A stretch of DNA of 39,028 nucleotides from an uncultured bacterium (GTDB lineage: Bacteria; Cyanobacteriota; Vampirovibrionia; Gastranaerophilales; Gastranaerophilaceae), in the NCBI GenBank assembly GCA_902796925.1, contig CADBQW010000011.1:1-39028 (forward strand), read 5' to 3'. Within the stretch, counting starts at the first letter, position 1; each line of letters starts with the position of its first letter. The notes below the pieces were generated by a model that did no database searches, was not told the DNA's origin, and saw nothing but the letters and a program-made list of their open reading frames with translations. This document shows positions 7,191-39,028 of this stretch, one piece after another. Both the position numbers and the translations under genes were made by a program.

Positions 7191-8354
7191 TTATTCAAAT
7201 TCAAAATTATTTTCTTCATCAGTTTTTTTGAATTTAGTATTTTTTAACCTTACTTTTTCATTTTTCTTTTGAATTTTATCAGGAAGCTTTCTGTAGGCAT
7301 TGTCTATTGAAACTTTTGCGAGAGGTTTTCTTGTTCGCTTATCGTAAAAAGTTAGCCAAAATTTTCTATTTACATTATCTACAGCAAAGGAAATTTGTCC
7401 CAGAGCCTTATCCCCCGGGTTAAGTTGCTTGAACATTAATTTTGTACTTCCAAATACGGAAGGATGAAATACTGCGTTATAATCGTTTATTAGCGCGAGA
7501 TCCAATCCGGAAAAAGTTTTGTCTGACATATTTGAGATTAAAATTGTCAAAGTTATTGTATTAACATCGCCGAAGGGATCTTTTTCATGTCTTATATCAG
7601 AGATTTGAACCTCCAGTCCGGGATATGTCAATTCGTGCTGCATCAAGGCTTCTTCCCTATATACAGGTAATGATACAGATTTATTTATTTTTATTCTTAT
7701 TTCGTCGCCCGGAGCTATTAGAACGTCGTTCCCTTTTCTTATGAGGGCCATTCCCAGACCTATAGCTCCGCCAACAGCGGCGCCACCTGCAAGAGTATAA
7801 CCATTTGATGCAATAGCAGCCTCTATACCGAGCCAATTCAAAGCCATAATGCCGCCAAGAGCACCTCCTGCAACAGTATAGCCAACATCTTGTACCGCTA
7901 TTTTTGCAGCTTGTGTAACCGGGTGCATTTTGGTAGACATCCTTCCTTCTATAGGGATTTCTCTACCATCCGGAGTTATCAAATAATCGAAATCCAATGA
8001 TATAGAAGCAGGGCGGCCAAGACGTTTAGCCTCTGTTTTTTGTAGAATTTTTCCATGAGCTATTGTGCCTTTGGGAATAATTATACCTTTACCACCTTTG
8101 ACGTCACCTGTAACTTCCGCAAAAAATTCGTCTCCTTCAAAATTCAAATTAGAATCAAGGACCTGAGAAACAGTCATATTAATAACATCGTGTCTATCAA
8201 GCTCCTCAACTTTTCCTGTGAACAGTTCTTCTTCGATTTGTTTTTCAAATCGTTCTGATTTTTCCGCATACCCTTTTAACGGCTCATTCGATAATGCGGG
8301 TAAATTAATTATTAAAAAATTCAATAACAGGAAAATTGAAATAATCTTTTTCAT
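7191..8354 (-). CDS. Secreted protein with a VirB10/TrbI C-terminal-domain-like core
   Basis: No recognised product name. A clear Sec signal peptide spans 1-22. Residues 55-137 read like the VirB10/TrbI barrel: two strands, then I-P-K-G-T-I-A-H-G (93-101) and I-T-P-D-G-R-E-I-P-I (126-135). A glycine/alanine-rich hydrophobic pair of segments (160-203) follows, at the place where VirB10 carries its antenna helices, then A-P-G-D-E-I-R-I-K-I-N (214-224). About 130 further residues form a beta-rich C-terminal domain ending in a Lys-rich tail. A shorter paralogue lies at 17786-18481. No type IV secretion genes are nearby. I infer an envelope protein, perhaps outer-membrane associated. It has a near-perfect promoter 6 nt before the ATG. 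Confidence 0.6.
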   Translation of the reverse strand: MKKIISIFLLLNFLIINLPALSNEPLKGYAEKSERFEKQIEEELFTGKVEELDRHDVINMTVSQVLDSNLNFEGDEFFAEVTGDVKGGKGIIIPKGTIAHGKILQKTEAKRLGRPASISLDFDYLITPDGREIPIEGRMSTKMHPVTQAAKIAVQDVGYTVAGGALGGIMALNWLGIEAAIASNGYTLAGGAAVGGAIGLGMALIRKGNDVLIAPGDEIRIKINKSVSLPVYREEALMQHELTYPGLEVQISDIRHEKDPFGDVNTITLTILISNMSDKTFSGLDLALINDYNAVFHPSVFGSTKLMFKQLNPGDKALGQISFAVDNVNRKFWLTFYDKRTRKPLAKVSIDNAYRKLPDKIQKKNEKVRLKNTKFKKTDEENNFEFE

Positions 8355-8456: not shown

Positions 8457-8945
8457 ATGTTAAGGAAAAACTTATTTATACTTATAATACTATCAGTTTT
8501 TTTGAGTCAAAGTGCGTATTGTGATGATTCCCAAAAAGATGTATTAATAAAGAGTATTTTGACCAAGTTTTCTGATTACAACATTACAATTAATGATACG
8601 CCGAGAGGTATTGTAACAAGTTTTCCTGAAAATGTAATTTTTGAAAATAATTCAATTAAATTGAGTTGCTGTGGGGAATTAATACTTTCTCAAATAGGAC
8701 AAATTTTAAATTCAATTGAGAATTCTTGCACAATAGAAGGTCATTCTTCAAGATTTAAAGGATTGGAAGCATTTGAGGCATCAATTATGAAAGCGGATGT
8801 TGTAGGACAATATTTAATAACGCAAAACCCAAATTTGCAAAACAGAATCTTTACTGTCGGATTAAGTGATTTTGAACCGATAGAAGCAACTGAAAACAAC
8901 AATAGGATTGATATTGTATTTTTCGCTTACGAACTTATGCGATAA
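8457..8945 (+). CDS. Exported OmpA-like protein with degenerate peptidoglycan-binding motif
   Basis: Signal peptide 1-22 (hydrophobic, ending S-A-Y-C). Residues 57-156 follow the OmpA/Pal/MotB C-terminal fold: a first strand, a helix L-I-L-S-Q-I-G-Q-I-L, then I-E-G-H-S-S (93-98), a long helix, G-L-S-D-F-E-P-I (135-142) and N-N-N-R-I-D-I-V (147-154). In true members the G-H-T-D Asp and an Arg in the following helix bind diaminopimelate. Here these positions read Ser and Lys, so peptidoglycan binding may be lost. At 162 aa it has no barrel or lipidation signal. A GATAAT box ends 6 nt before the ATG. Its 3' end overlaps the sigma factor gene by 11 nt, convergent. Confidence 0.65.
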   Translation: MLRKNLFILIILSVFLSQSAYCDDSQKDVLIKSILTKFSDYNITINDTPRGIVTSFPENVIFENNSIKLSCCGELILSQIGQILNSIENSCTIEGHSSRFKGLEAFEASIMKADVVGQYLITQNPNLQNRIFTVGLSDFEPIEATENNNRIDIVFFAYELMR

Positions 8946-12744: not shown

Positions 12745-14550
12745 TTAATAGAATCGAGACCTTCTGTTTGCAACCATGCTTACAAGGCGGCTTGCACGCG
12801 AACTCATTACAAAGTTTCCGTTAGACCTCCTTCTTCCATAGTACCCCATAGGGTTTGTAGAGTATTGTTGCGGCATTATCGCAGCAGAAGAATTTAAGGA
12901 AGTTGATAAGCCTGATGCTAGTTTATCTATATCTTTAAATGCATCCTCATTTTGCTTTTTGAGTGATTTTATTTTTTCTTCCGTTGCCTCTGCAAAGTCA
13001 GACATAAGCTCTTTTCTTGTAGCTTTTATTTCTTGAGCAGTTTTGGTTTCTGCTTTTGTCTTTATATCTTTGTATGCCTCAGTAGCATCAGTAATACGTT
13101 TATTTTCACCATCAACACCGGCAAGTAAATCTGCTTGAACAGCTTTTATAGTCTGCTTTTTAGATAAATCACCAATAGCACCGTTACCGTCTTTTCCAAC
13201 TATTTCTTTTGCATCTTTCATCGCTTTCAATTTGTTTTCTGCATCTTCAACTTTTGTATTAATAGATTTCATTTCGGCCTCAAAACCTTTTGTGCTCTTT
13301 ATTGCTGCAGAACCGGCCTGAATAGCACATGCTGAACTTTGCAATGCTGCAGCCCAATTTCCGTCAGCAACATTGGCTGCCGTTTTGGCTACATTTGCCG
13401 TACAAACCCCATATTCACCTACGGTTTTAGCGGTATATCCGATTTTTTCCGCCCACTCGCCTGTTACTATTAGTGCGGTGGCCAGACTTGATGCTATACC
13501 CAGAGTGCTTCCTGCAAGTGCATTACCCGCGACAATTAATCCTGTACCAACAAGTTGTAACGCTTGTCCGCCCTGTTGTACAAGGGTAGAATACTTTTCT
13601 GCTTCATTTGCGAAATGTAAGAAGTCATTATTTTCAGCTTCACTTGCTTTCATCGATTCTTGCATTCTTAGTTGATTTTGGTAGAACGCATTTTGAGTTC
13701 TGTTCATGTTGCTGAGAGAATGGAGACATCTCATATTAAGCGTTTTAATTTTTGCGCCATATTGTTCTCCGATACTCAATTTTGACTCAAGTTGAGCCTC
13801 AAGAGATTCGAGTTCAGAAGCGTTGTCTCCGGCATTCCCGGATTTCTTTGGTATTCCTGATTTGTTTTCGTTTTCTCCGGCAAGAGTCAAAGAATAAACA
13901 CTCTTATTAAATCCATTCTCGTCAAAGTTATTTGATTCTTGCAACATTTTTATTTGTGATTGAATAGATTCAATCTCTTTAGAATTTCGATCTGCATCTT
14001 TTATTGTTTTTTCAAGTTCTTTTTGGTCTTTTTTATATTCAGTTTGCTCTCTTTTTAATTGTTTTTCAAAATTCTTTTGCTGTTTTTTAATATCTTTCTG
14101 GTCTTTTTGAGCCTGAACACTCATCTTTTCGGAAATTTTGGCATTATTTTGAGCGGTAGCTGAATATTCTTTGCTTTCCTCTGTTTGCGACTTAATTTTT
14201 TCGCCTTGAGATTTGACATCGGAAATTTTAGACTTTGCGTTATTTTTATTTATATTTAAACTGTTTTCCAATGATTTGTTGGATTTAGAATTTGTGGTTC
14301 CGTTAGTTAAGTTGTTATTAGAAGGAAATGGGTCATGGTGCTTGTTATTAACAGTTTTTTGAGTTGTTTTACTATTTGAGCTAACCATGGAAAGACTATT
14401 TTCTAAAGAAAAAATAGAACCATTTTTACTCATAGCTTTTTGCTCAGGAGTTTGAGTTTTTTGTGCAGAAGAGGTAGATACAGGTTTTATTTGCTGTATC
14501 TTCTTATACATCTCTAAATTAACTTGTTGATTATTTAAACCAACTGCCAT
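12745..14550 (-). CDS. 601-aa coiled-coil protein with a central hydrophobic region, function unknown
   Basis: Not recognised. The sequence shows a polar Ser/Asn/Lys-rich N-terminus (1-105), Lys/Gln/Glu-rich coiled coils (about 106-205 and 245-320), a hydrophobic hairpin-like stretch (about 325-365), an Ala-rich segment (370-418), another coiled coil (420-545) and a basic tail with four Arg clusters (573-599). There is no signal peptide. This coiled-coil, two-hydrophobic-segment, coiled-coil order resembles type III secretion translocators such as IpaB/SipB. That is topology only, and no secretion genes are present. The ATG follows a GGAGAG site. Its leader and promoter resemble those of two small genes in this window (18696 and 28908). 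Confidence 0.75.
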   Translation of the reverse strand: MAVGLNNQQVNLEMYKKIQQIKPVSTSSAQKTQTPEQKAMSKNGSIFSLENSLSMVSSNSKTTQKTVNNKHHDPFPSNNNLTNGTTNSKSNKSLENSLNINKNNAKSKISDVKSQGEKIKSQTEESKEYSATAQNNAKISEKMSVQAQKDQKDIKKQQKNFEKQLKREQTEYKKDQKELEKTIKDADRNSKEIESIQSQIKMLQESNNFDENGFNKSVYSLTLAGENENKSGIPKKSGNAGDNASELESLEAQLESKLSIGEQYGAKIKTLNMRCLHSLSNMNRTQNAFYQNQLRMQESMKASEAENNDFLHFANEAEKYSTLVQQGGQALQLVGTGLIVAGNALAGSTLGIASSLATALIVTGEWAEKIGYTAKTVGEYGVCTANVAKTAANVADGNWAAALQSSACAIQAGSAAIKSTKGFEAEMKSINTKVEDAENKLKAMKDAKEIVGKDGNGAIGDLSKKQTIKAVQADLLAGVDGENKRITDATEAYKDIKTKAETKTAQEIKATRKELMSDFAEATEEKIKSLKKQNEDAFKDIDKLASGLSTSLNSSAAIMPQQYSTNPMGYYGRRRSNGNFVMSSRASRLVSMVANRRSRFY

Positions 14551-14747: not shown

Positions 14748-15260
14748 TTACCCTTTACCGTAGAACTGCTGAATTCCTTTATCGCGTTCTTGTTTTGCTT
14801 CGGCAAGTTCATGATCTATCATTGCTTTTTGAGCATTTAATTGTTCTAATTCTTGTTGAATTTCTTGTTCCTGTTCATTCATAAGAGCTGCTTCTTGTTC
14901 TTTTGCAACTTCTCTTTGCTGTTTGTAGAAGTTTTGGAACATTTGGTTCATAATCAACTGTTGTTGTTGAGGGGGAACCTGTGCCAATTGCATTTGCATC
15001 ATTGGCATTGCTTGTTGCATTTGTGCTTGGGCATTAGCCATCGCAAAACTGTGAGCATACTGCATATACATAGTCTGTCTGCCCATCATGCCTGCAGGAG
15101 CGTTCATCATATCATTCAATGATATCGAACCGTCTGCAATTTGTGTTGAATACTTCTGAAGTTTTCTTCGCTTCTGGTGAAGTTTCAATATCTTGCTGCT
15201 GATGTCGAACTGCTCACGAGTCAATTGCCCAATTAATGCACTGTACATTAATACTGACAT
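14748..15260 (-). CDS. 170-aa Gln/Met-rich coiled-coil protein, function unknown
   Basis: Not recognised. Residues 1-48 are a predicted helical segment with a basic patch (H-Q-K-R-R-K). Residues 51-112 are extraordinarily rich in Met and Gln, including runs such as P-M-M-Q-M-Q and P-P-Q-Q-Q-Q. Residues 113-165 form a Glu/Gln coiled coil. It has no signal peptide or membrane segment. The ATG follows an AGGTGG site. It lies between clpP and the 601-aa coiled-coil gene on the same strand, but with its own terminators on both sides, so it is a single-gene unit. A run of AGGTT repeats precedes it. Confidence 0.75.
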   Translation of the reverse strand: MSVLMYSALIGQLTREQFDISSKILKLHQKRRKLQKYSTQIADGSISLNDMMNAPAGMMGRQTMYMQYAHSFAMANAQAQMQQAMPMMQMQLAQVPPQQQQLIMNQMFQNFYKQQREVAKEQEAALMNEQEQEIQQELEQLNAQKAMIDHELAEAKQERDKGIQQFYGKG

Positions 15261-17785: not shown

Positions 17786-18481
17786 CTATAAAACCGGGAT
17801 ATCAATCGGTTGTAGAAGAATTACCTTTAAAATATCCCCTTTTTTCAAGTCAAATTCTTCGCCCTTTTTAATTGCATCAACAATACCGTCACCAAGATAA
17901 TATGCACCACTGCCTATTACGCCACCTATTGCGCAAATCGGAACGGTTAATATTCGCAGATACCCTCCGGCAACATCAGAAGCTATATCATTTCCCCATT
18001 TTGTGGAATTTTTGGTTATGTCGACTGTGGTCTTCCAATTTTCTTTCAGTGCATCAGTATAATGTTCGTTTCTGACAAGCCCGCCGTCAAAAGACACATC
18101 AGACCTTCCGATAATAGAAAGCTCCATAGGTATCTGTCGCCCGTTTGGGGTTACCACGTGATCAAAATCTAAATATAATACCGCACCTCTTGAAAGTCTC
18201 CTTGCCGGTTTAATTCTCTTTATTGAGCCCCTTACAAGTGACCCCATCGGCAAAATTACATCTTTATCCGCTTTCTGATCTGTTATAAGTATTGCGGAAA
18301 AATCAGAATTTTCGACGGTATTTAATGTTGAGACAGGACTCATCATTTGAAGTTCAAATTCAGTTCCCGCCGGAATTCTCTTTGTTTTCGCCTTAGCATT
18401 AAATGGTGTTGCCGCCATAACATTGCTGATAGTCAATGCTAATGCTGTAATTATAGTCATTATTTTAATCTCTGTTTTCAT
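17786..18481 (-). CDS. Secreted VirB10/TrbI-like paralogue, short form
   Basis: Shorter paralogue (231 aa) of the protein at 7191-8354. Signal peptide 1-24 (ends V-M-A-A). Then I-P-A-G-T-E-F (36-42), S-D-F-S-A-I-L (59-65), L-P-M-G-S-L-V-R-G (77-85) and V-V-T-P-N-G-R-Q-I-P-M (109-119), the same spacing as in the longer protein and in VirB10/TrbI C-terminal domains. A hydrophobic Gly-rich segment (175-200) precedes the final strand G-D-I-L-K-V-I-L-L. It lacks the extra C-terminal domain of the longer copy. An AAAGGAG site precedes the ATG. Function is unknown; an envelope location is inferred. Confidence 0.6.
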   Translation of the reverse strand: MKTEIKIMTIITALALTISNVMAATPFNAKAKTKRIPAGTEFELQMMSPVSTLNTVENSDFSAILITDQKADKDVILPMGSLVRGSIKRIKPARRLSRGAVLYLDFDHVVTPNGRQIPMELSIIGRSDVSFDGGLVRNEHYTDALKENWKTTVDITKNSTKWGNDIASDVAGGYLRILTVPICAIGGVIGSGAYYLGDGIVDAIKKGEEFDLKKGDILKVILLQPIDIPVL

Positions 18482-26497: not shown

Positions 26498-28744
26498 TTA
26501 TGAATTAAGAACCTTCATTGTTTCTTGTATTGCCGATTCAGATCTTGCGAGGGCATCATCTCCGGGTTTTGTATCATACGAGTTTGTTTGAACACCCTGC
26601 GGTGACGGCATATAGCCTCTTGCCGGTTCAATATCGCCCGCTTTGACAGGTGTTGGAGACGGAAGATAACTGTACGTTTTTGCATTTGCCGGCTCTTGTG
26701 ATTGGAACCCTTGCTGAGCTTGGGTTGCTTGAGGTTGTTGAGCTGGAGTTCTGTACTTATCTAACATGTTACCGCCATTTTGTTGTTGTTGTGCCTGTTG
26801 TTGAAAGGCTTTTTGCATTTCGATTAGTCTCGCCTGCTGTTCAGGAGTGAGTTCACCTTGTTTGGGTTCTTCTTCTTTTCCTTCGTCAAGAACGGAATGT
26901 TCAGGTTTTCCGAATATTTTGTGACATCCTTTTACTACGGTATTTCCGATTAGCGGCATAAGTGTTGCCATACAGAATATAAATCTGAATGCAGAACCGC
27001 CAAATTCTTTCGCGTAGAATTTCGGATTTCTAAATACATTTTTGAATAAGTTTCCTATTCCTTTAGGGGTAAATTCAATCTTTTCAATAGCATGTTTAGA
27101 ATATGGTCTTATTTGTCCTAAGCCTATTGTTGTAATCTGTCCTATCTTACGGGCAATACGCGTAAAGATATTTTTACCTTTTGGTAAACCTGCAGAACCT
27201 TTTTTGTATGCTTTTTTTCTAAAATCTTTTAAGTCTTGATAAGATTTTTTCCACGCATCCTTACTTTCAAATTCAGCGGCTTTGGCTTTTGCGTTATGTT
27301 CATTAACCATATTTTTATATTGTTTAACTTCATCTTTAGTCATACCAATGTTCTGAAGGTCACCGATCTTGTAAAGTGCTTTTATAGCAAAAGGCATACA
27401 TGCAAAGAATGCAACCAATTCTGTTAATCTTTCTGCAAATGTTGCGACTTTATCACCTTTTTTGGCCTGAGCAGTTCTTATTACCGCTTCGGCTAAGAAC
27501 CATGCCTGAATAATTGCAACCAACTTACCGCCGGCTACACGGTTCGTTGCACCTTCGAGAATGATATTGCCATATTTGCCGAAAGCTTTACCCAAAGCCG
27601 ATTTTGGCGCGTGTGTTGCAAGGTTTGTATCTTTCATAACTTGAGCGAGTTTGGCATCTTTTTCCCAATTGCCCAATTCTGCAACAAGTTTATTTCTGTA
27701 TTCTGACATGTATACATTACGACCGCGAACGAATCCCTTAAATCTATGCCACCAATTACCGGTTCCGTGAGTATATCTGCGGCAATACATACTATTATCT
27801 GCTTCGTTAAGTGCTTTAAGAACATCAGGCATTTTTTCTTGAATATTTTCTTCAATATGTTTCCAATGTTTCAAACTCTTATAACCTGAAGCCTTTGCTT
27901 TCATGTTTTGAAGCACTTTAAACTTGTCTGCAGGATTTGTTATTGCTTGGAATTTCTCTAAACTATCAATTCCACCAAAACAATACTTTCCATTGCCCGG
28001 TTTTGACAGAAGTTGAAATTCGGCTTCCTGAATAACATTTAATTGAGCTTCGCTTATACTGGCAGATTTGCCAGGATTCAATTTCGTTTTTAATTTTTCC
28101 CAAAAACCGGACTGTCCCGAGGCCGCATCATATTTAGTCCGTACTTCTTCAATGAACTTTTTATCTGCACCGTAACAATCCAAATCCTCTGGGAATTGTA
28201 CACTTTCTAAAAATCCATTCTGAACTTGCGGATAATCAAACAATTGTATGCCCTTCATTCCGTTTGCTTGACCTTTTACCATATCCAATTCAGGACTTGT
28301 GATACCATCGTTTAAACTCCTATATATTGCAGAATTGTCGTAGATTTTTTTGCGAATTTGCGATTTGTATTCACTGATTTTAGATCTTAAATTTTTAAAC
28401 CAATTTGCCTTTCCAAGTCTGCTATTATTAAATGAATTTGTAATTTTGTCTCCTGCATTAGTAAGTTTGTATTCAATAGTATCTTCGTAATTTCCGCGGC
28501 ACCTTTGAGCAAACTTATCCATACCGTAGCCAAGACCAACCATTATGGGAGCTGCAACCGCCATTTGTAATGCTGGATTTATCTCTGAAAGCTGTGATGC
28601 ACGGTTGCCAACATACGAATCTTGAATCTGCTCTTGCAACTGCTTTGGCATATCTTCAACACCTTGCATAGGCTGTCCGTTTTGCCCCACTTGAGCACGC
28701 ATTCCGGTTAAATTTGGCTGAGTATTTACATCAAAATTTTCCAT
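26498..28744 (-). CDS. 748-aa membrane-associated protein, function unknown
   Basis: Not recognised. No signal peptide: the N-terminus is Gln-rich and polar. Hydrophobic segments lie at about 58-75 (flanked by Gly), 405-424, 440-460 and 584-604, separated by long basic helical regions. The C-terminal 120 residues are Gln/Pro-rich low complexity (runs such as A-Q-Q-Q-Q-N) with two Y-x-P-S-P repeats (693-697 and 711-715). The ATG follows AGGAGA. Composition resembles the Gln-rich proteins at 12745 and 14748, although I see no real alignment. It is divergent from the 56-aa gene. Confidence 0.75.
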   Translation of the reverse strand: MENFDVNTQPNLTGMRAQVGQNGQPMQGVEDMPKQLQEQIQDSYVGNRASQLSEINPALQMAVAAPIMVGLGYGMDKFAQRCRGNYEDTIEYKLTNAGDKITNSFNNSRLGKANWFKNLRSKISEYKSQIRKKIYDNSAIYRSLNDGITSPELDMVKGQANGMKGIQLFDYPQVQNGFLESVQFPEDLDCYGADKKFIEEVRTKYDAASGQSGFWEKLKTKLNPGKSASISEAQLNVIQEAEFQLLSKPGNGKYCFGGIDSLEKFQAITNPADKFKVLQNMKAKASGYKSLKHWKHIEENIQEKMPDVLKALNEADNSMYCRRYTHGTGNWWHRFKGFVRGRNVYMSEYRNKLVAELGNWEKDAKLAQVMKDTNLATHAPKSALGKAFGKYGNIILEGATNRVAGGKLVAIIQAWFLAEAVIRTAQAKKGDKVATFAERLTELVAFFACMPFAIKALYKIGDLQNIGMTKDEVKQYKNMVNEHNAKAKAAEFESKDAWKKSYQDLKDFRKKAYKKGSAGLPKGKNIFTRIARKIGQITTIGLGQIRPYSKHAIEKIEFTPKGIGNLFKNVFRNPKFYAKEFGGSAFRFIFCMATLMPLIGNTVVKGCHKIFGKPEHSVLDEGKEEEPKQGELTPEQQARLIEMQKAFQQQAQQQQNGGNMLDKYRTPAQQPQATQAQQGFQSQEPANAKTYSYLPSPTPVKAGDIEPARGYMPSPQGVQTNSYDTKPGDDALARSESAIQETMKVLNS

Positions 28745-38492: not shown

Positions 38493-39028
38493 TTACCATG
38501 GATAGTCATCTTTTATTTTCCAGCCGTCATACTCTATTTTTCGTGCACACCAAAGACCTGAACTAGTACCTTTAGAACAATAGGTTCGCATATAATTTAG
38601 ATCATTTCTATCGATAGTTTCAGGATATGGGGTAACATAACCCTTTTCATTTATTGCAAACACAAATACGTCTCGGCCAAACCTGTTTGGACCTTGTGGA
38701 CCGTTTAAATCGATTTTAAATATTAGCAAATTAAGTATATAATTGTAATCTAGCTTAATAAGTGTACCGTCTGATAGCCTAAAAGGATGAGAAGTTTCAT
38801 CAATTAAAGAGTAACCATGGGTTGTTACACTATCGGTGTATTTCCAAGGCCACATACTTTTGTAACCACAAGAAGAATAGGTTGAACAGATTTTAGAAAC
38901 TTTCATATAAGGAATTAAGTATTGATTGCTAAAATCATCATATGTAAAATTGCTGTCAGGTTTTGTCCACTCAGAATAGTCCCCGTTAGCTGTTTGAGAA
39001 ATTTTCATGGCCTGATTGAGCTCACTCA
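38493..39028 (-). CDS. Pilin-like (type II secretion/type IV pilin family) protein, N-terminus cut by window edge
   Basis: The frame stays open through the right edge (S-E-L-N-Q-A before the first visible Met), so the N-terminal helix is outside. Counted from the ATG at 39008: Y-L-I-P-Y-M-K-V (30-37), paired Cys (41 and 47), S-D-G-T-L-I-K-L (79-86), D-L-N-G-P-Q-G-P-N-R-F-G-R-D-V (100-114), and a C-terminal C-x9-C (144 and 154) ending in a Trp-rich tail. The D-x-N-G / P-N-R-x-G-x-D element also occurs in the partial gene at the left edge. It is likely a pseudopilin or minor pilin, 171 or more residues. It is convergent with the SNF2 gene. Confidence 0.65.
   Translation of the reverse strand, partial: SELNQAMKISQTANGDYSEWTKPDSNFTYDDFSNQYLIPYMKVSKICSTYSSCGYKSMWPWKYTDSVTTHGYSLIDETSHPFRLSDGTLIKLDYNYILNLLIFKIDLNGPQGPNRFGRDVFVFAINEKGYVTPYPETIDRNDLNYMRTYCSKGTSSGLWCARKIEYDGWKIKDDYPW

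Follow-up and report, generated by a model that had tools for sequence, protein, structure and literature searches.

In the solved type IV secretion systems (T4SSs), the channel through the outer membrane is made by the two-helix bundles of VirB10 (PMC3297438, PMC6536674). A T4SS has been proposed for Vampirovibrio (PMC4451040), and Melainabacteria are reported to have lipid A genes together with SomA/B porin homologues (PMC4040986). Closest to the present subject are the TrbI-like proteins described as ancestral to cyanobacteria, with four in the inferred ancestor, and named there as conjugation proteins (PMC3141437). They share the phylum and the Pfam label of the family treated here, any identity of the genes being by label alone, and the passages on them do not set apart free domains, SLH fusions and motor clusters (PMC3141437). 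Within the open-access literature (subscription journals lay outside this scope), no account was found in which free VirB10 domains accompany a Tol/TonB cluster, nothing joined VirB10 with Melainabacteria, and nothing concerned free VirB10 in cyanobacteria. Papers on VirB10 with TonB, ExbB or ExbD were, by title or abstract, for the most part genome surveys, reviews or T4SS papers, and those on TonB-dependent proteins and Melainabacteria were, by title, about the gut or nutrition.

Here we describe two genes, P0001 (387 aa) and P0002 (231 aa), from an uncultured member of the Gastranaerophilaceae, gut bacteria of the non-photosynthetic cyanobacterial class; the window is the whole 39,028-nucleotide stretch that was analysed. 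With moderate confidence, we favor the reading that both encode exported, free-standing VirB10/TrbI C-terminal domains that serve the envelope without a T4SS, as outer-membrane modules of which some are worked by Tol/TonB motors. Use of the VirB10 domain outside type IV secretion is supported by the evidence below, the domain itself being already known from T4SSs. What is new, as read from gene content, is a paralogue pair encoded with Tol/TonB motor genes. The features of the two window genes are collected in the table.

Table. Features of P0001 and P0002 in the window, with residue ranges, nucleotide positions and basis of assignment
Feature	Residues	Position	Strand	Description or basis
P0001 gene		7191..8354	-	secreted; VirB10 C-terminal-type domain + C-terminal Ig-like (DUF4352-like) domain
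P0001 signal peptide-like N-terminus	1-22	8289..8354	-	sequence reading; model helix 2-21
P0001 VirB10 C-terminal-type domain	47-235	7650..8216	-	VIA-align Z 10.3-11.1, hhalign E 1.9e-6
P0001 shared element IPKGT...TPDGREIPI	94-135	7950..8075	-	kept in orthologues
P0001 hydrophobic Gly-zipper hairpin at VirB10 antenna place	149-206	7737..7910	-	two predicted helices, pLDDT <50
P0001 C-terminal Ig-like domain	240-357	7284..7637	-	VIA-align
P0002 gene		17786..18481	-	secreted protein consisting of the VirB10-type domain alone
P0002 VirB10 C-terminal-type domain	31-231	17789..18391	-	VIA-align of predicted model
P0002 insert, fold not resolved	124-203	17873..18112	-	pLDDT <50

The original prediction, made from the sequence of the window, held that two secreted paralogues share a motif and resemble the VirB10/TrbI barrel. 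Both open reading frames are real, and the common element stands in register, reading IIPKGT...TPDGREIPI in P0001 (P94, G96, P128, G130, R131, P134) and ILPMGS...TPNGRQIPM in P0002 (P78, G80, P112, G114, R115, P118), and in each protein the second P lies 34 residues after the first, as the predicted equal spacing implies. A GD or SD strand before the element, a Gly-rich hydrophobic insert and a final strand (PGDEIRIKI in P0001, KGDILKVIL in P0002) were likewise found in both. P0001 matches P0002 at E about 2e-11 in a search of their own genome, and a comparison of their orthologue profiles gives E 9e-25 across 175 columns; judged by these comparisons, the two are certainly paralogues, their likeness lying far past chance. 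The signal peptides were read by eye from the sequence and coincide with an N-terminal hydrophobic helix in the models, and across the family a strongly hydrophobic N-terminal stretch occurs in 132 of 140 open reading frames, a set that includes duplicates.

A Pfam scan of 28 window open reading frames at E 0.001 revealed no type IV secretion family, in agreement with the prediction, and searches of Pfam, NCBIfam and PHROGs with P0001 and P0002 themselves gave nothing useful. At the same threshold, Pfam also left several other frames of the window without a match: 8-763 (251 aa), 12745-14550 (601 aa), 14748-15260 (170 aa), 26498-28744 (748 aa) and 38493-39008 (171 aa). Divergent from P0001 lies a gene (8457-8945) for a secreted OmpA/MotB-like protein, whose OmpA domain scores 27.4 bits against a cut-off of 27.2.

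Structure prediction followed by fold searching placed both proteins with VirB10. The AlphaFold2 models carry the VirB10 C-terminal fold, and the predicted succession of strand, element, insert and final strand agrees with VirB10 in the order of strands, the place of the insert and the strand that closes the domain. For each model, the 20 best Foldseek matches were without exception VirB10, CagY, ComB10, TrwE or TraF chains, with a best E of 5.9e-6 for P0001. In VIA-align comparisons, residues 46-235 of P0001 gave Z 10.3-11.1 to TraF, CagY, Xanthomonas VirB10 and TrwE, while P0002 reached Z 12.0 to CagY, 10.8 to ComB10 and 10.2 to TraF; its VirB10/CagY/TraB/DotG-type rows span Z 7.5-12.0, and the next row drops to 4.1. 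Mean pLDDT is 70 for P0001 and 62 for P0002, whose input alignment consisted mostly of P0001 orthologues. The additional C-terminal domain of P0001 gave Z 10.3 to YcdA, 8.9 to YjhA and 8.5 to ApaG; by its predicted fold it may belong with the YcdA/YjhA/DUF4352 Ig-like domains, although its match to Pfam DUF4352 is weak and not significant (E 0.064, 14 bits vs 25.9). Because solved VirB10 structures were among the training data of AlphaFold2, profile comparison offers the more independent line of evidence.

At the profile level, the proposed relation to VirB10/TrbI emerged for P0001 orthologues and not for the P0002 profile alone. Comparison by hhalign of 25 P0001 orthologues with nine plasmid VirB10/TrbI proteins gave E 1.9e-6, probability 90% and score 55.4, in an alignment that reaches the last strand of the domain; with reversed columns E was 0.26, and in 40 column shuffles the score rose no higher than 22.3. 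A profile of the whole family performed similarly (E 1.1e-6). The P0002-orthologue profile reached only E 0.027, with a score of 23.5 vs 23.3 for shuffles, and since its model also rests on an alignment of mostly P0001 orthologues, the link of P0002 to VirB10 runs through P0001.

With a threshold as lax as E 10, Pfam TrbI (PF03743, cut-off 35 bits) matched neither P0001 nor P0002, and it gave 0 matches over their own genome. Among relatives the model is closer to reach: in sister species, two close paralogues that are free proteins some 250 aa long (L114, L115) pass the cut-off with 37.6 and 37.4 bits and are matched by the family profile at about 1e-60, and in per-genome searches P0001 orthologues match TrbI at E 8.9e-6 (G037) and 1.2e-4 (G023). 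Of 194 genomes sampled from the phylum, 89 have a TrbI match at E 0.01 and 16 have one that exceeds the cut-off. A paralogue in the genome of the window (L086:1400-2146) matches NCBIfam T4SS_ComB10 at 7.3e-6, far below the 300-bit cut-off of that model. In a PDB sequence search with the family profile, nothing was significant: ComB10 ranked 4 at E 0.25, and an OmpA-family chain stood ahead at 0.079.

Could the resemblance be that of a convergent beta-domain unrelated to VirB10? The shuffle-level score of the P0002 profile, the lack of a TrbI match in either protein and the rank of ComB10 in the PDB search would be expected on such an origin. Set against it are profile E values of about 1e-6 with clean controls for P0001 and the family, paralogues that exceed the TrbI cut-off, strands that run in the same order with the insert at the same place and the same final strand, and top fold matches that are exclusively VirB10-type; this profile, Pfam-paralogue and fold evidence largely refutes convergence, which we consider very improbable. 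Structural kinship of the family with VirB10 is near certain. Neither of the two results named beforehand as counting against the original prediction, models without the VirB10 barrel or profiles unrelated to TrbI, was obtained. The original prediction had left open whether the proteins are derived from or convergent with VirB10; kinship is the better supported of the two, while the outer-membrane location that it also suggested is one that we infer.

In a quick tree, nine T4SS proteins and 44 family rows were split by a branch with support 100, and the P0001, P0002 and OpA groups (the last being the first gene of a clustered pair described below) are each confined to one side of a branch. As 22 of the 50 inner branches have support below 80, the tree carries no claim on the order of subfamilies or on whether VirB10 or the free family came first. 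One alignment (A4) omitted one 654-aa row of 83 distinct family rows, and another (A6) used 44 of the 80 P0001 orthologues.

The free proteins differ from VirB10 in architecture and company. VirB10 has an inner-membrane anchor and a proline-rich periplasmic arm, whereas P0001 and P0002, as read from their sequences, have neither, a signal peptide-like segment being followed by the domain. In T4SSs, VirB10 has VirB4 and VirB9 as partners, which the free family goes without: VirB4 (PF03135) was detected in 1 of 99 related genomes and not in the genome of the window, and VirB9/CagX (PF03524) exceeded its cut-off in 0 of 99. Weak VirB9/CagX matches below the cut-off occur in 8 of 99 genomes, and the five examined sit in frames of 128-167 aa. 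These short proteins, from relatives within the order (L255-L259; L255, 160 aa, scores 32.2 vs 34.2 bits), are possibly free VirB9-like domains as well.

The family itself is nearly universal among relatives. With P0001 as with P0002 as query, all 99 of the 99 related genomes yielded members. Within the order, 78 of 82 genomes have a P0001 orthologue that matches at E 6.2e-80 or better, the matches in G005, G029, G056 and G078 being weaker, and 79 of 82 have a P0002 orthologue at E 3.3e-22 or better. The family profile detects 6 copies in the genome of the window and 7 to at least 13 in the other genomes listed from the same family; of 194 genomes sampled from the phylum, it detects members in 120. 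A fold is also assigned here to order-wide Gastranaerophilales genes that Pfam and NCBIfam leave unnamed.

This distribution bears on the idea that the genes are the remnant of a lost conjugative system, or plasmid cargo, for which the plasmid T4SS proposed for Vampirovibrio, a member of the same class, offers a precedent (PMC4451040). With 78-79 of the order's 82 genomes holding orthologues, VirB4 in 1 of 99, orthologous clades apart from plasmid VirB10 at branch support 100, and no family relative confirmed among viral contigs, such an origin is rejected as extremely improbable.

No conserved operon surrounds P0001 as it stands in the window, since, of 80 named loci, no more than 2 show any of its window neighbors beside it. 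In those loci (L165-L244), P0001 is followed by a Penicillinase_R (BlaI/MecI-type) gene in 70 of 80 and a 123-aa gene in 69 of 80, and the former does not follow it in the window. P0002 has no strongly conserved neighbor; the most frequent, a TPR protein, accompanies it at 10 of 20 loci. Elsewhere in the same genome, a 311-aa paralogue is followed on the same strand by genes for a VWA-domain protein and a multi-pass membrane protein (L087:337-4578, contig C49).

When 14 matching phylum-level genomes were searched again, most of the members listed were free proteins, about 210-450 aa long, and several of the members begin with three SLH repeats; one further match (L317, 163 aa) spans only the Gly-rich part and was not relied on. 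A fusion of three SLH repeats to a VirB10-like domain is also encoded in the genome of the window (L085:5721-7001, contig C59). Others (L316, L318, L320, L321, L323) extend the occurrence of such fusions over Gastranaerophilales and oxygenic cyanobacteria; SLH was assigned by Pfam for L085 and L320 and by eye for the rest.

In most family groups, the insert is richer in glycine than in the T4SS set, with group medians of 15-29% Gly vs 11%; the exception is OpA, at 11%. Median GxxxG counts per insert are 0 in the T4SS set, 4 for P0001, 2 for P0002 and 8.5 for OpB, the second gene of the clustered pair. The P0001 insert itself has 20% Gly, four GxxxG and a maximal 19-residue hydropathy of 1.71, and that of P0002 has one GxxxG and a maximum of 1.63.

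The main alternative is a reading in which the homology is the same and there is no pore: the proteins would be outer-membrane/peptidoglycan scaffolds or tethers, in which the hairpin only anchors and an SLH or Ig-like domain does the work. The peptidoglycan-binding SLH fusions in the same genome and in oxygenic cyanobacteria, the Gly-zipper matches given by the family insert and the OmpA-type gene adjoining P0001 in the window fit this role, as do motor genes in the cluster below that are at least as Tol-like as Exb-like, Tol systems pulling on the envelope rather than importing. Several paralogues, however, lack any tether domain, and the VirB10 two-helix insert is described as the T4SS outer-membrane pore former (PMC3297438, PMC6536674). 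We regard a purely structural role as possible, if somewhat doubtful.

The cluster lies on another contig of the same genome (L086:737-4992, contig C22), where two VirB10-type genes (737-1336 and 1400-2146) are followed, on the same strand, by genes of TonB/TolA and TolQ/ExbB type and two of TolR/ExbD type; the Pfam matches are TonB_2 at 2.5e-13, MotA_ExbB at 1.5e-28 and ExbD at 3.5e-24 and 4.4e-27. The same gene order recurs in 17 selected loci of the taxonomic family and is complete in 16; in the remaining one (L276), two extra open reading frames separate the TonB and ExbB genes and no ExbD follows. The 20 loci examined had been picked for matches to clustered-type paralogues (17) or at class level (3, none with the cluster), so that 16 of 17 does not describe a random sample. 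With these 17 excluded, the 120-locus set contains the cluster in L086, L099, L101, L327, L328 and L329. Three of these represent other families of the order (L327-L329), with both VirB10-type genes only in L329, and L101, from the same class outside the order, has one VirB10-type gene and one ExbD. In at least 30 of 99 genomes, that of the window included, a family match precedes a TonB_2 domain on the same strand by at most 2 kb, typically about 1 kb, and TolQ/ExbB and TolR/ExbD genes come next in the loci that were read. Among the matches listed, typed family-TonB_2 pairs number 31, all but one of them (G091, 6.7 kb) spaced by 2 kb or less.

TonB and Tol systems usually have TonB-dependent receptors or Pal/TolB as their outer-membrane partners. 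Receptor plug domains were found in 15 of 99 genomes and barrels in 16, together 16, and receptors were undetected in the other 83; the genome of the window has neither domain, nor did P0001 or P0002 match the plug and beta-barrel domains of Pfam. TonB_2 itself occurs in 98 of 99 genomes. As TonB_2-type proteins number several per genome, most without a tested outer-membrane partner, adjacency in the cluster is an association only. By NCBIfam scores, the motor genes are placed between Tol and TonB: the TolQ model gives 104 bits vs 66 for ExbB, TolR 76 vs 58 for ExbD, and the TonB-type gene passes the TonB C-terminal model and not that of TolA. Within the VirB10-type pair, OpA is without a hydrophobic insert (median 46.5 residues, hydropathy -0.18) and OpB has one, so the pair seems to combine a partner that enters the membrane with a soluble one, and not every family member can pierce a membrane.

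In the working that we propose for exported VirB10-type modules, Sec export would be followed by lateral packing of the beta-domain, copy against copy, on the periplasmic side of the outer membrane. The Gly-zipper hairpin, at the position of the VirB10 antenna, would then enter the membrane to give an oligomeric patch or pore. Because the insert has pLDDT below 50 in both models, membrane entry is the inferential part of this scheme, and ring formation in T4SSs also uses VirB7 and VirB9, the latter not found here over its cut-off; on balance, an outer-membrane assembly with the hairpin in the membrane seems slightly better than an even prospect. For the clustered paralogues, the inner-membrane half of VirB10 that is missing here might be supplied in trans by the proton-driven Tol/TonB motor, P0001, with its extra Ig-like domain, and P0002 being motor-free or separately served members. 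It is a tentative and rather unlikely proposal that, in these mostly receptor-free bacteria, a proton-motive-force motor works or gates an outer-membrane complex of free VirB10 domains; P0001 and P0002 do not lie in motor clusters, and the coupling idea reaches them by analogy only.

Compared with known systems, the window proteins agree with VirB10/TrbI/ComB10/TraF (PF03743) in strand order, the IPxGS...PDG element, the place of the helical-hairpin insert, the closing strand and the fold. Genes of the kind found in TonB-ExbB-ExbD and TolA-TolQ-TolR systems here directly follow a VirB10-type pair, and the cluster allows a direct test of where TonB/TolA exerts its pull in diderm cells that have no TonB-dependent receptors. 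If a motor does act on the pair, the membrane pore and the energy-sensing arm of VirB10 would be separate, proton-driven parts, and P0001 and P0002 would by analogy be widespread sister complexes built in the same way. T4SSs are where the alpha-helical pore that VirB10 forms in the outer membrane is known, and about 6 to 13 free copies were detected per small genome here; if the favored reading of free-standing outer-membrane modules is true, the VirB10 domain would be a general envelope module and a candidate source, or second life, of the T4SS outer-membrane core.
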